Both the position numbers and the translations under genes were made by a program. Positions 3,690 through 54,991 of a DNA stretch of 64,000 nt are shown here, in pieces. This DNA is from Haploplasma modicum ATCC 29102 (GTDB lineage: Bacteria; Bacillota_I; Bacilli_A; Acholeplasmatales; Acholeplasmataceae). The stretch lies in contig NZ_JHYB01000002.1 in the NCBI RefSeq assembly GCF_000687835.1, forward strand, positions 434,001-498,000, written 5' to 3'. The stretch's first letter is position 1; every line of letters starts with the position of its first letter. The notes below the pieces were generated by a model. The model worked only from the letters and a program-made list of their open reading frames with translations. It was not told the origin of the DNA and searched no databases.

Positions 3690-4325
3690 TCATACTATTT
3701 TCTTTATCTCCAATAAATTATCAAAGATATAATTTGGGTTATATTTAGTTGCCTCATTTAAACGATAACTATAACCCATTAGTCCCGTTTTTACATTTGC
3801 ATTTTTACCTGCAATAATATCATTTTCATGATCACCTATATAAATTGCATTTTCTGCCTCTATTTTCAATCTATCTAAAGCAATTAAAATAGGTTCAGGA
3901 TTTGGTTTATGAATACTACTATCATCATGAGTAATTACGCAATCAAAATACTCGATTAATCCAAGTTCCCTTAAATTATTATAGGCAACTTCTTTATTTT
4001 TGCTAGTTACAATTCCTATAAGTAAACCTTTACTTTTAATTTCGTCTAATAATTCAATTAAGCCTTCATATGTTTCAAGTTTAAAACTTTTGTGATTTAG
4101 TGAAAATTCTCTAAATGTTTTAATCATTTGATTTAAATGATCATCACTTTCTGAAAATCTCGCAAATGCTTTAGTTAAAGTTTGACCTAAAACATTAGTT
4201 ATTTCATACTCTGTTAAAGTATAACCTTCTGTATTTTTGTTAACCGCTTCTTTAAAACTTTCAATAATAAGTTCTGGTGTATTAATTAATGTCCCATCTA
4301 AATCAAATAATATCGCTTTTATCAT
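3690..4325 (-). CDS. ppaX: HAD-superfamily hydrolase, PpaX/Gph-like phosphatase
   Basis: Cytoplasmic HAD phosphatase with motif I FDLDGTL at the N-terminus, motif II VTSKNK, and motif III/IV GDHENDIIAGKNA. The start chosen is the ATG at 4325, with GGGAG spaced 7 bases upstream; an in-frame ATG 30 bases earlier has no ribosome site and adds ten non-conserved residues. It overlaps the lgt 3' end. In Bacillus, ppaX (pyrophosphatase for PPi made by HPr kinase) lies downstream of hprK-lgt, so the position after lgt supports this identity, but hprK itself is not in this cluster. Phosphoglycolate phosphatase is an equally valid family label. Confidence 0.8.
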   Translation of the reverse strand: MIKAILFDLDGTLINTPELIIESFKEAVNKNTEGYTLTEYEITNVLGQTLTKAFARFSESDDHLNQMIKTFREFSLNHKSFKLETYEGLIELLDEIKSKGLLIGIVTSKNKEVAYNNLRELGLIEYFDCVITHDDSSIHKPNPEPILIALDRLKIEAENAIYIGDHENDIIAGKNANVKTGLMGYSYRLNEATKYNPNYIFDNLLEIKKIV

Positions 4326-5311: not shown

Positions 5312-5747
5312 TTAATTCTCCTTATCTTTTACGAACTGAATTTTTTGATAAACTACCACAAATAATAATTTAACAAATGTAAAAACTATAACAAATAATA
5401 ATAAACTTAGTAAATATGGTTTTTTAAATGTCACTCCCACTTTAAAAAGAGTTGAAAGATAAATACATACCCCATTAATTAAAATAAATATTAGTCCTTT
5501 AGTTTTAGATAATATTTCAAAGAAATACCTAACAATAAATAATTTTATAGCTTCAATAAAAATTGTAACTATAATACTATATATAATTAATCCTGAGACT
5601 TTATTATAAATAATTAGTGGCGTTTTGAATAAACTAAATAATCCACTTAAAGTAACAACTACTAAGATATTTAATATAATTGCAATTAAAATATGGATTT
5701 CTATTCTCTTGTTTAAAAATAAACCCATTTTTTCCACATATAAATCA

Positions 5748-21361: not shown

Positions 21362-21383
21362 AAAAAAAGAATTGATATAATTC

Positions 21384-21497
21384 TCTCTTCTTCCATCCAG
21401 ACTATAACTGTCGGTTCTAGAATTTAACTAGATCAACCTAAAAAGGCTCGCGGACTATACCGCCGGTGGAGACTTACACTCCGCCCTGAAGATTCAT
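21384..21497 (-). promoter_or_regulatory. FMN riboswitch (RFN element)
   Basis: On the minus strand the conserved RFN blocks appear in order: AATCTTCAGGGC, a GGAGTG...CTCC hairpin, CCACCGGCGGTATAGTCC, GCGAGCC, AACCGACAGT, and TCTGGATGGAAGAAGA closing P1. The spacing and conserved core residues agree with established FMN aptamers, which turn off riboflavin synthesis or transport genes when FMN is plentiful. Confidence 0.97.
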
Positions 21498-37831: not shown

Positions 37832-37842
37832 ATCTTGTGTGT

Positions 37843-37958
37843 GATCCGAATCTAAAAATGAGTGGGGGAACCAGTTTTTGGGGTGAATTTTACTTTGTAA
37901 AAGGAGAGTCTTGGAATCTCTAATCCGTCAGCTAACCTCATAGGAATAAATCCAGGCG
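37843..37958 (+). promoter_or_regulatory. c-di-AMP riboswitch (ydaO/yuaA type)
   Basis: The conserved blocks of this class are in order: GATCCGAATCT, GTGGGGGAACCAG, TTTTGGGGTGAATT, a GGAGAGTCTTGGAATCTC hairpin, and ATCCGTCAGCTAACCTCATAGG. Riboswitches of this class sense c-di-AMP and usually switch off potassium and osmolyte transport or cell-wall genes. The controlled gene here is a cation/proton antiporter of the CPA2 family, which fits c-di-AMP control of potassium. Confidence 0.95.
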
Positions 37959-37987
37959 TACAGCATTTTTGTTGGCGTTTTTTTTAT
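37956..37987 (+). terminator. Riboswitch-associated terminator before the antiporter
   Basis: A hairpin formed by GGCGTACAGCATTTTTGTTGGCG with an imperfect stem is followed by T8. It lies between the aptamer and the AGGAGG ribosome site, so it is the likely expression platform. Confidence 0.65.
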
Positions 37988-52028: not shown

Positions 52029-52057
52029 TTGTCTAGTTATTTTTTTTATGTTATAAT
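52029..52057 (+). promoter_or_regulatory. Promoter of the tyrosine-leader/ABC transporter operon
   Basis: TTGTCT-17-TATAAT, with transcription predicted to begin near 52064, about 24 bases before the leader-peptide ATG. A strong promoter well upstream of the first transporter gene (about 230 bases of leader). Confidence 0.82.
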
Positions 52058-52087
52058 ACCCCTAACCAAAAGATTGAGGTGTAACTT

Positions 52088-52156
52088 ATGTTTAATAAAA
52101 ATTTACAAACACAAGTTTATTATTATTACTATTACCAGGGAGATATTATGATTTAA
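52088..52156 (+). CDS. Leader peptide with six consecutive tyrosine codons
   Basis: A 22-residue ORF begins with ATG, preceded by GAGGTG, and ends in TAA. Residues 11-16 are all Tyr (TAT TAT TAT TAC TAT TAC, 52118-52135); the start is MFNKNLQTQV and the end QGDIMI. Its stop codon overlaps the first strand of a hairpin that competes with the downstream antiterminator. Too short to be a normal protein; the homopolymeric Tyr run and following alternative RNA helices make it a ribosome-stalling leader sensing charged tRNA-Tyr, by analogy with trp, phe and his leaders. Mechanism is inferred from sequence only. Confidence 0.85.
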   Translation: MFNKNLQTQVYYYYYYQGDIMI

Positions 52157-52215
52157 CACTGGTTTTTTAGTATTACCGTGTTGTTATAATATCTGTTTGA
52201 TATAGTAATAACACA
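52155..52215 (+). promoter_or_regulatory. Competing RNA helices of the tyrosine attenuator
   Basis: Three helices exclude one another. Helix X pairs AACAC+GGT (52155-52163, one bulged T) with ACCGTGTT (52175-52182). Helix II pairs GTGTTGTTAT (52178-52187) with GTAATAACAC (52205-52214), extended by ATATC/GATAT. The antiterminator pairs AATAACACA (52207-52215) with TGTGTTATT (52243-52251). Ribosome at the stop codon blocks X, allowing II and thus termination; ribosome stalled on Tyr codons permits X, freeing 52207-52215 to form the antiterminator. Confidence 0.7.
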
Positions 52216-52240
52216 CCAAATAAATTAATTTAAATTAATG

Positions 52241-52278
52241 AATGTGTTATTCCTATGAATAATACATTTTTTTATTTT
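52241..52278 (+). terminator. Attenuator terminator before the trpX-like gene
   Basis: AATGTGTTATTC-CTAT-GAATAATACATT, a 12-bp stem with one G-U, followed by T7ATTTT. It ends 20 bases before the transporter gene and its 5' arm is the strand also claimed by the antiterminator. Confidence 0.88.
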
Positions 52279-52297
52279 AAAAGAAAAGAGGACAAAT

Positions 52298-53287
52298 ATG
52301 AAAAAAATATTTTTGGGATTATTAATTATGATAAGTGCAATAACACTTATCAGCTGTAAGAGTGATGGTTTAATTAAGATTGGGATCTTGCAATATGTAT
52401 CTCACGAAGATTTAGATGATGCAAGAATTGGTTTTATTAAAGCTTTAGAAGAAAATGGCTTTAAGGATAATGTAAATATCAAACTAACAATTCTAAATCC
52501 ACAGGCAGATAATAATGTTATGCAGTTACAAGCAAAAAAATTAGTACGTTCAAATGATCTTATCTTAGCTATTGCTACTCCTGCAGCACTAGCAATTGTT
52601 AATGAAGTTAAAGAACAAGGGAAAAATACTAAAGTGTTATTTACTGCAGTAACAGATCCAGTTGATGCAAAATTAGTTAATAGTTTAGAAAATCATGGTT
52701 CAAATATAACAGGTACTTCTGATTTAACACCAATTGACAGACAAATTGAATTAGTTAAAGAGTTAAAGCCAGATGCAAAAAAAATTGGTATTATTTATAC
52801 AGCATCTGAAACAAATTCAAAAGCTCAAGCAGATATAGCAAGTATGGAAGCACAAAAATTAGGTTTATCAGCAATTACAAAAACTATTAGTACAATCGGT
52901 GACTTAGCACCAATTTTTAATAGTTTAGTAGTTAATGATAAGGTTGATGCAATCTATATTCCAAGCGATAACTTACTTTCAAGTAATATTGGTCAGTTAA
53001 ATGAACTAAATATTGCAAAAGCAAGCTACCAAGTTCCTATTATTGCATCTACTACTTTCCAAGTTAGAGAAGGTGCTGGGATTACTCTAGGTCTTAGTTA
53101 TAAAAATCTAGGAATTCAAACAGGCTTAATGGCTGTTGATATCTTAAATGGTAAAGATATAAAAGAAATTGATGTTGAGATGATTGAAAAATTAGAATTA
53201 GCAATTAATAAAACAAGTTTAATTGAAATATTAAAACTTGAAATAGATGCTTTATTATTAGATAGAGCTGATATTATTTTTGAATAG
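52298..53287 (+). CDS. TrpX-like ABC transporter substrate-binding lipoprotein, predicted tyrosine binder
   Basis: 329 residues. Signal peptide with lipobox LISC (Cys20). The mature protein is of the PF04392 (ABC_sub_bind) family: KIGILQYVSHEDLDDARIGF, VLFTAVTDPVDAKLV, TGTSDLTPIDRQIEL, and ASTTFQVREGAGITLGLSY are characteristic of TrpX-type proteins. Tryptophan is the assumed ligand for T-box-controlled relatives; the six-Tyr leader upstream points to tyrosine here. AGAGGA precedes the ATG. First gene of a three-gene transporter operon. Confidence 0.92.
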   Translation: MKKIFLGLLIMISAITLISCKSDGLIKIGILQYVSHEDLDDARIGFIKALEENGFKDNVNIKLTILNPQADNNVMQLQAKKLVRSNDLILAIATPAALAIVNEVKEQGKNTKVLFTAVTDPVDAKLVNSLENHGSNITGTSDLTPIDRQIELVKELKPDAKKIGIIYTASETNSKAQADIASMEAQKLGLSAITKTISTIGDLAPIFNSLVVNDKVDAIYIPSDNLLSSNIGQLNELNIAKASYQVPIIASTTFQVREGAGITLGLSYKNLGIQTGLMAVDILNGKDIKEIDVEMIEKLELAINKTSLIEILKLEIDALLLDRADIIFE

Positions 53288-53289
53288 TT

Positions 53290-54237
53290 ATGGAATTATT
53301 ATACATATTAACTGATGCCTTAGAAACTGGTCTTATTTGGTCAGTTTTAGCGATTGGAGTTTTTATCTCCTTTAGAATGTTAGATTTTGCAGATTTAACG
53401 GTTGAAGGTAGTATTGTTCTTGGAACAAGTATTACAGCAAGTGTTATGTTAAATAATAATATTGGTTTTTTAAACAATTATATCTTTGCCATTATCTTTG
53501 CAGTTATTGGTGGGGCCTTAGCTGGTATTACTACTGGTTTATTAAATGTTAAATTTAAGATTCCAAGTATTTTAGCAGGGATTATTAGCATGACTGCACT
53601 TTATTCAATTAACTTAATGATCATGAAAGGTGCTAGTTTGTATATCGGCGATCTTCCAACAATTTTTAATCCCTTAGAAATGTTTTTTAGTAATGTACTT
53701 AAAATAGAAAATATTGCAACTGTTAAGTTTTTAACTAAGTTTATCACAACACTTCTTATAAACGGCATAATATTTTTATGCCTTTACTGGTTTTTTGGGA
53801 CTGAATTTGGCATGGCACTTAGAGCAAGTGGAAATAATATTCAAATGGCTAAAGCACAGGGAATAAATACTGATAAAATGATAATTGTTGGCCTTGCAAT
53901 ATCAAATGGATTAATTGCCTTGACTGGTGCTTTATATGTACAAAGTTTTAGATCAAGTAATATGGATATCGGTAGAGGAACAATTGTCGTTGGTCTTGCA
54001 TCAATTATATTAGGAGAAATATTATTTGGAAAGACCACATTTAAAAGATGGTTAATAGCTGTTATTTTAGGTAGTATTGTCTTTCAATTAATTATTGGAA
54101 TTGCTATTTACTTAGGATTTTCAGCAAACAACCTAAAATTATTACAAGCAATTTTAATTGCCGTAGTTCTTGCTAATCCGGTAATAAAAACTTGGTATAA
54201 AAACTCTATAAAGAAACGTGGTGAAGTTAATGCTTGA
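53290..54237 (+). CDS. TrpY-like ABC transporter permease
   Basis: 315 residues with eight to nine hydrophobic helices. RMLDFADLTVEGSIVLGTSI near residue 30 and GVVLGLSNG-like GLAISNGLIALTGALYVQSF near 205 match the uncharacterised permease family (COG4120) paired with TrpX. ADIGRGTIVVGLASIILGE-like segment near 235 is the usual Gly-rich end. Starts 2 bases after the substrate-binding gene and overlaps the ATPase start by 8 bases. Confidence 0.92.
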   Translation: MELLYILTDALETGLIWSVLAIGVFISFRMLDFADLTVEGSIVLGTSITASVMLNNNIGFLNNYIFAIIFAVIGGALAGITTGLLNVKFKIPSILAGIISMTALYSINLMIMKGASLYIGDLPTIFNPLEMFFSNVLKIENIATVKFLTKFITTLLINGIIFLCLYWFFGTEFGMALRASGNNIQMAKAQGINTDKMIIVGLAISNGLIALTGALYVQSFRSSNMDIGRGTIVVGLASIILGEILFGKTTFKRWLIAVILGSIVFQLIIGIAIYLGFSANNLKLLQAILIAVVLANPVIKTWYKNSIKKRGEVNA

Positions 54238-54991
54238 GATAAATAATTTATATAAAGTATTTAATTCTGATATGGCAGAAGATTTGAGAAAAGTTGCCCT
54301 AAATGATGTCAGTGTTACTATAAATAAAGATGATTTTGTTACTATTATTGGTAGTAATGGCTCAGGTAAGTCAACATTTTTTAATACTATATGCGGATTA
54401 TATACACCAGATAGTGGGACTATCTTATTAGATAATACTGATATAACTAATCTGAAAGAATTTAAGCGAGCAAGTTTAATTGGTAGAGTTTTCCAAGATC
54501 CATTAATTGGTACTGCTGGTGATATGTCTGTTTTAGAAAATTTATATCTGGCAAATAAAAAGGGTGAGAAACGTAAACTAAAATGGGTTTTTAATAAAAA
54601 CGACGAAGAGTATTTTTATGAAATGGTTAAAAATTTAGACTTAGGAATTGAAAATAATTTGAGCCAAAAAATTAAATTTTTATCCGGTGGTCAAAGACAA
54701 GCAATTACACTTTTAATGGCAACACTTAAAAAACCAAAACTTCTGCTTCTAGATGAACATACTGCAGCCTTAGATCCTAAAACTGCAAATATTGTTTTAG
54801 AGTTAACTAAAAAAATTGTTTTAGACCAAAATATCCCAACTATTATGATTACTCATAATATTAGTGATGCTATCAAATATGGTAATAGAGTTATAATGTT
54901 TAAGGACGGAAAAATTGTTTTAGATGTTTCTGGTAGTGCAAAAGAAAAATTAACAGTGACTGAAGTTTTAAGTAAATTTGAAAGTATCTAA
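54230..54991 (+). CDS. TrpZ-like ABC transporter ATPase
   Basis: ATPase of about 253 residues with Walker A IGSNGSGKSTFF, Q-loop VFQDPLIGT, signature LSGGQRQAI, Walker B LLLLDEHTAALDP and switch TIMITHN. The DEHTAALDP form of Walker B is typical of the TrpZ group. The ATG at 54230 overlaps the permease stop by 8 bases; GTGGTGA is the ribosome site, and a GTG 12 bases earlier is less likely. It energises the preceding permease. Confidence 0.93.
   Translation: MLEINNLYKVFNSDMAEDLRKVALNDVSVTINKDDFVTIIGSNGSGKSTFFNTICGLYTPDSGTILLDNTDITNLKEFKRASLIGRVFQDPLIGTAGDMSVLENLYLANKKGEKRKLKWVFNKNDEEYFYEMVKNLDLGIENNLSQKIKFLSGGQRQAITLLMATLKKPKLLLLDEHTAALDPKTANIVLELTKKIVLDQNIPTIMITHNISDAIKYGNRVIMFKDGKIVLDVSGSAKEKLTVTEVLSKFESI

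Follow-up and report, generated by a model that had tools for sequence, protein, structure and literature searches.

The locus examined here raises the question of whether a run of tyrosine codons in a short leader ORF can serve both as the sensor of a transcription attenuator and, when no ribosome translates it, as the strand that keeps the attenuated operon off by default, as an initial annotation had proposed from base pairing. It lies in a 64,000-nucleotide stretch of Haploplasma modicum ATCC 29102 DNA (the window), upstream of an ABC importer operon. The leader is probably a ribosome-mediated transcription attenuator which senses charged tRNA-Tyr and controls an aromatic amino-acid importer, with several relatives probably sensing tRNA-Phe as well; within it, pairing between the codon run and the antiterminator strand probably provides one way of reaching the off state, redundant with a second.

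Organisation of the leader

A translatable short ORF with a run of Tyr codons is followed by a terminator hairpin and U run set against an antiterminator, as expected of an attenuator, and the alternative helices I, X, II, antiterminator and terminator, of which X and I covary, form a chain of the his-type relay kind. The features referred to below are:

52029..52057, + strand, promoter-like pair TTGTCT-17-TATAAT, with 10/12 consensus matches, a weak assignment as shuffled sequences hold equally many
52076..52079, + strand, GAGG, likely ribosome-binding site of the leader peptide, 8 nt 5' of its ATG
52088..52156, + strand, leader peptide ORF MFNKNLQTQVYYYYYYQGDIMI*; Tyr/Phe leader ORFs occur at 25 further places
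52118..52135, + strand, six Tyr control codons read from the sequence, TAT TAT TAT TAC TAT TAC
52123..52132, + strand, strand A, the stretch of the codon run (TTATTACTAT) complementary to strand C
52134..52138, + strand, helix I 5' strand, ACCAG (CCAAG in most relatives)
52141..52152, + strand, helix X 5' strand, expected to be covered when a ribosome sits on the last Tyr codon or reaches the stop
52159..52163, + strand, helix I 3' strand, CTGGT (CTTGG in most relatives)
52178..52194, + strand, strand B, of which 52183-52194 forms helix X and 52178-52187 forms helix II with C
52202..52215, + strand, strand C, with partners A, B (helix II) and D (antiterminator, through 52207-52215)
52178-52187 with 52205-52214, + strand, helix II (B:C)
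52207-52215 with 52243-52251, + strand, antiterminator (C:D)
52240..52273, + strand, terminator (D:E), 52240-52252 with 52257-52269, running into T7 at 52267-52273
52298..53287, + strand, regulated gene, substrate-binding protein (PF04392), best solved relative 6hni (CD0873)
53290..54237, + strand, ABC permease (PF02653)
54218..54991, + strand, ABC ATPase (PF00005)

The promoter-like pair gives an estimated 5' UTR of about 24 nt. D at 52243-52251 is part of the terminator stem as well as the antiterminator partner of C. The terminator was absent from a consensus terminator scan of the window, whose rule is at least three G-C pairs, and the stem is AU-rich.

In the proposed mechanism, a ribosome stalled on Tyr codons 1-5 would mask A together with the 5' strand of helix I, so that X would hold B, leaving C free for D; the antiterminator would form and transcription would continue. 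With tyrosine plentiful, the ribosome would move on to the last Tyr codon or to the stop and cover the 5' strand of X instead, B would take C as helix II, D would pair with E and transcription would end. When the leader is not translated, C would be sequestered either by the codon run, in an A:C helix enclosing X, or by B in helix II, helped by helix I, and the default-off state would therefore come from either form of C sequestration.

Complementarity between the codon run and strand C

The 10-base complementarity which had been claimed between TTATTACTAT (52123-52132) and ATAGTAATAA (52202-52211) is perfect, and its letters and coordinates are correct, as is the description of C as the strand shared by helix II and the antiterminator, since C pairs with B or with D. 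A separate pairing of ACCAG (52134-52138) with CTGGT (52159-52163), said to compete with helix X, is also perfect; it is the 5-bp part of helix I, the better-conserved pairing of the codon run, which crosses X and excludes it. A:C and X were considered as competitors and this was ruled out, as the two nest: A:C encloses X, and the lowest-energy fold predicted contains the two together. Of the helices listed for 52062-52290, the terminator had the most non-wobble pairs, and A:C came second, tied with X at 10.

A perfect complement of at least 10 bases to the 18-nt codon run arose in 2.2% of 3000 dinucleotide shuffles of 52157-52297, and 12 of the 64 synonymous spellings of Tyr6 (18.75%) reached 10 bp against the real downstream strand, with 81% reaching 8, so the length of A:C is uncommon rather than extreme. 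Much of it comes from the core GTAATAA, a complement of any TAT-TAC. The window's own Tyr spelling was no better for A:C than random synonymous recoding (p = 0.74 and 0.81), and p was 0.22 for the window alone when the six bases preceding the C core were shuffled.

Predicted folding states with and without a ribosome

Folding of the untranslated window transcript from 52062 to 52254 predicted helix X at 0.96, A:C at 0.92 and the antiterminator at 0.05, and the terminator reached 0.98 when the transcript was extended to 52275. The order of events during transcription was also predicted, with helix I at 0.98 at 52180 and X in its place by 52198. With a ribosome of standard footprint on Tyr codons 1-5, the antiterminator was predicted at 0.82-0.96 (0.71-0.81 under a slightly different definition), and at Tyr 6 or the stop codon helix II was at 0.96-0.99 with the antiterminator no higher than 0.04; a footprint 3 nt longer at Tyr 5 flipped the leader to helix II (antiterminator 0.04). 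The window leader thus folds off when untranslated and on at Tyr 1-5, in keeping with the sensor and default-off roles. In the nearest relative, L004, A:C was at 0.00 in the predicted fold despite 8 bp of complementarity.

The part of the proposal which held less well was the dependence of the off state on A:C, since helix II can substitute for it. Forbidding A:C with fewer pairs blocked raised the window antiterminator to 0.87. When more pairs were blocked, helix II formed at 0.87-0.97 if the leader was cut at the ATG or given a 5' UTR of 5-26 nt, and the antiterminator formed at 0.60-0.72 with a 5' UTR of 28-33 nt. That A:C is certainly required for the window's default-off state was therefore rejected, as a few bases more or less at the 5' end change the outcome; the estimated 5' UTR of about 24 nt would fall on the side where the off state does without A:C.

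Across 23 related leaders folded without a ribosome, the antiterminator was below 0.3 in 15 and at least 0.5 in the other 8, which are predicted to be on; helix II was at least 0.5 in 10 and A:C at least 0.5 in 4. Blocking A:C increased the antiterminator by more than 0.3, switching the untranslated leader on, in only two of the 23, the window and L066b. At some stall position the antiterminator exceeded 0.5 in 11/23, the stop state was below 0.3 in 19/23, and the stall-minus-stop difference in antiterminator exceeded 0.3 in 9/23, the window showing the expected contrast. These equilibrium values are soft, because a run of all 26 leaders without their 5' UTRs gave a different picture, kinder to A:C (mean 0.29 without a ribosome). 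From these predictions we infer that the two off routes are redundant.

A family of Tyr/Phe leaders in relatives

Leaders of the same type were found at 25 further places in relatives, giving 26 with the window. Each of the 26 combines a short ORF of the Tyr/Phe kind with a hairpin and T run, and its strands pair as C:D and as B:C. Helix I could be drawn in some form in 26/26, and helix X was only about 5 bp by eye in five (L083, L089, L090, L095 and L096). A protein search of 160 genomes of the order found matches in 12, and among 395 genomes drawn from the class 74 had them. The nearest four of the order (the window, L004, L015 and L025) all carry the leader, and a search for the C and D pattern matched exactly these four among the 160 genomes; in G147 (L025) the leader stands upstream of a permease-ATPase-binding protein operon. 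No Tyr leader was seen by eye in about 500 bases 5' of the match in each of nine relatives (L005-L013). Forty upstream regions were taken from the class search, of which 21 had a leader of the same type, L066 having two, and the remaining 19 had T-box-like leaders, other Tyr/Phe ORFs or nothing recognised. The orders of G309 and G163 (the same 43 genomes) yielded nothing new when searched. A second match of the leader DNA in its own genome (L002) proved to be an unrelated leader of another binding protein.

The start codons of L061, L066b, L069 and L070 were picked by hand, and L088, L097 and L076 were left out of the leader count as having another kind of Tyr/Phe ORF: the sequence 5' of the binding-protein gene in these three encodes short peptides such as NYYYSYY* and SYFFSYFR*, and other inverted repeats come after them. 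Homologous importer genes of other genomes (L077, L079, L080, L081, L085 and L087) had no Tyr leader and were preceded by repeats like GAATGGTAG, then a hairpin and T run; such repeats lie within the last 150 bases 5' of the binding-protein gene, and a similar motif spans the start codon of that gene. L066 has two tandem binding-protein genes, each with its own leader (their ORFs lie at 4207 and within the ORF listed at 5451), one Tyr-rich and the other Phe-rich, which may represent a duplication whose sensed codons are diverging. Many of the leader peptides of L061-L092 end in (Y/F)PR after the aromatic run; this ending may be kept for the RNA rather than the peptide, because, spelled with CCAAG, it also supplies the strand for helix I.

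Covariation and synonymous codon choice

Pairing tests were made on 23 of the 26 leaders, after near copies L070, L096 and L078 were dropped, with strand C anchored on its core. Cluster tests used 15 clusters drawn by eye with all 26 leaders as members, except that of the C flank, which used the 23. As the leaders are related, values over all leaders overstate the evidence, and the cluster values are preferable. Helix X covaried strongly: its own partners gained a mean of 5.0 kcal/mol over swapped partners across the 15 clusters (median p of 0 in 3000 permutations), with a reversed control gaining 1.0 kcal/mol (p = 0.03). Helix I covaried clearly, with a median p of 0.002 for the run plus three codons and p = 0.02 for the aromatic codons only (15 clusters).

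Support for A:C across the family was modest, with p of about 0.01-0.05 over 15 clusters. Own versus swapped partners gave p = 0.045 for the aromatic codons only (reversed, 0.52; 15 clusters), and with the next codon included gave p = 8e-5 over 23 leaders and a median p of 0.013 over 15 clusters (reversed, 0.26); extension of the pairing past the core gave p = 0.021 (14 clusters). When the six bases which precede the C core were shuffled, the natural flank was the better one for A:C (z = -3.85 across the 23 leaders; p = 0.04 at the level of clusters). That the choice between TAT and TAC in homologues preserves complementarity to C had been suggested as a check; across the 23 leaders it tends to do so, with synonymous recoding favouring the natural pairing (z = -3.85 with family codon usage, -3.29 with own codons permuted; reversed-C control, -0.51 and -0.73), but the window alone does not show it. 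For helix I the same recoding gave z = -3.42 and -2.83, with a reversed control that was not clean (-2.11 and -1.75).

The A:C signal was patchy, being rich in one clade, that of L061-L068, where it peaked, reduced to the core in many leaders and lost in L095 and L096. Changes of codon identity were matched by changes in the partner strand: L015, with Phe codons and an A-run in C, has 14 bp of A:C (TATTACTTTTTTTA:TAAAAAAAGTAATA), L065 and L068 have 11 bp (TTATTACTTTC:GAAAGTAATAA) and L062 has 11 bp (TTATTACTATT:AATAGTAATAA), and the same was seen in helix I of L095, which includes an Ala codon (TTTTTACGC:GCGTAAAAG). L064 and L061 have 12 bp each, with a wobble. At the weak end, L004 has 8 bp and L071 has 7 bp, L089 reaches 7 bp with the help of wobbles, and L095 and L096 do no better than 7 bp even with wobbles counted. 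L095 and L096 retain Tyr/Phe codons, and so the case that had been named as counting against the proposal, Tyr codons kept with complementarity lost, does occur; universal conservation of A:C is ruled out by these two together with L071 and L004.

What the A:C pairing may be for

There is a substantial chance, only a little short of even, that A:C is a by-product, in which strand C must be GTAATAAC in order to pair with B and D and the default-off state comes from helices I and II alone. Any TAT-TAC complements GTAATA through the genetic code, many Tyr6 spellings reach 8 or 10 bp, and the window's codon choice is untuned to A:C; the few leaders in which A:C is predicted to form or to matter, its loss from L095 and L096 and its disuse in the fold of L004 point the same way. 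Against this, synonymous choice, with its clean reversed controls, and the bases 5' of the C core both favour A:C, and in several clades the C flank tracks codon identity (TAT with ATA; TTT with AAA or GAA). Somewhat less probable is that evolution keeps helix I and that the A:C signal is partly its echo, helix I fixing the same TTACTTTCC spelling. The presence of helix I in every leader, its stronger own-pair test and the spelling in its favour are consistent with such an echo, but its reversed control was not clean, and the C flank, which lies outside helix I, still tracks the codon run.

That A:C acts on something other than termination, by shaping RNA polymerase pausing or by hiding the codon run before a ribosome loads, seems improbable: A:C and X together would make a long hairpin before D is transcribed, as in a pause hairpin, but the ribosome-binding site lies outside it. 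We retain the reading in which A:C, probably alongside a second and redundant route, leads to the off state; the pairing is real in the window sequence, plausible there and modestly selected in the family. Another reading, which we advance tentatively, is that selection acts on the control codons as an antisense strand to both the segment after the stop codon and the antiterminator strand, such that changes from Tyr to Phe drag the switch strand along and the switch sets synonymous choice.

The downstream importer and its specificity

The regulated binding protein scored 235.5 bits against the TrpX equivalog NF041285, below its curated cut-off of 390. Its best solved relative, 6hni, is CD0873, described as the tyrosine-binding protein of Clostridioides difficile, in which Glu-263 hydrogen-bonds the tyrosine hydroxyl and is replaced by Ala in Phe- and Trp-type relatives (as given in PMC6816091). 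The residue aligned with Glu-263 was Glu in 24 of 26 leader-linked proteins and Thr in those of the window and L004, and so tyrosine specificity of the window protein is unsupported by this position. Many leaderless homologues also have Glu here, and the residue is therefore no predictor of a leader. In L021, L022 and L024 the position is Ala, and T-boxes upstream align UGG (Trp) at what we read as the specifier position. This suggests that the type of RNA, Tyr leader or Trp T-box, tracks the ligand-selecting residue, Glu or Ala, and that importer specificity may be readable from the upstream RNA. The 64-kb window gave no T-box match (RF00230), and the rest of the genome gave 11, of which seven were over the cut-off. 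Other RNA elements in the window were an FMN riboswitch (21381-21497, - strand) and a c-di-AMP riboswitch (37834-37960, + strand).

Comparison with known attenuators

In enteric trp and his attenuators, as described in PMC1183508, region I, which holds the control codons, pairs with region II, and in the untranslated leader I:II and III:IV form and transcription terminates; a codon run which doubles as a default-off strand is, by that description, the classical design. The window leader shares with this type the control-codon run, the leader peptide and the mutually exclusive antiterminator and terminator, and the his leader as described there has an extra hairpin, like helix II. It differs in its Tyr/Phe codons, in controlling an importer rather than a biosynthesis operon, in its AU-rich strands and in a codon run with two possible partners, one after the stop codon and the other strand C. 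His leaders reported in Firmicutes (in the accounts of PMC9413887 and PMC2965389) share leader-peptide attenuation outside the Proteobacteria, and differ in having His codons and his genes.

Closer at hand, the uORFC-13-1 motif of Acholeplasma, a Phe uORF before aroF (PMC8632094), compared here by its description, shares an upstream ORF with aromatic codons before a terminator and may come from the same broad bacterial group; its gene, aroF, and its Phe run differ. The trpXYZ operon of Streptococcus suis is described with a Trp T-box (PMC9382623), whereas the window leader has no T-box match; S. suis TrpX and the window binding protein are related through the TrpX family model, with CD0873 the best solved relative of the latter. 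A literature search covering titles and the starts of abstracts, with few subscription journals, found no Tyr leader described for TrpX/CD0873-like importers. The Tyr/Phe leader family, the second partner strand and the match with a tyrosine-type importer are new in relation to these systems. Together they point to attenuation through Tyr/Phe leader peptides as a widespread control of amino-acid importers in a group of small-genome bacteria which also use T-boxes, and they offer a naturally occurring collection of leaders whose amino-acid identity, choice among synonymous codons and RNA pairing change together in evolution.
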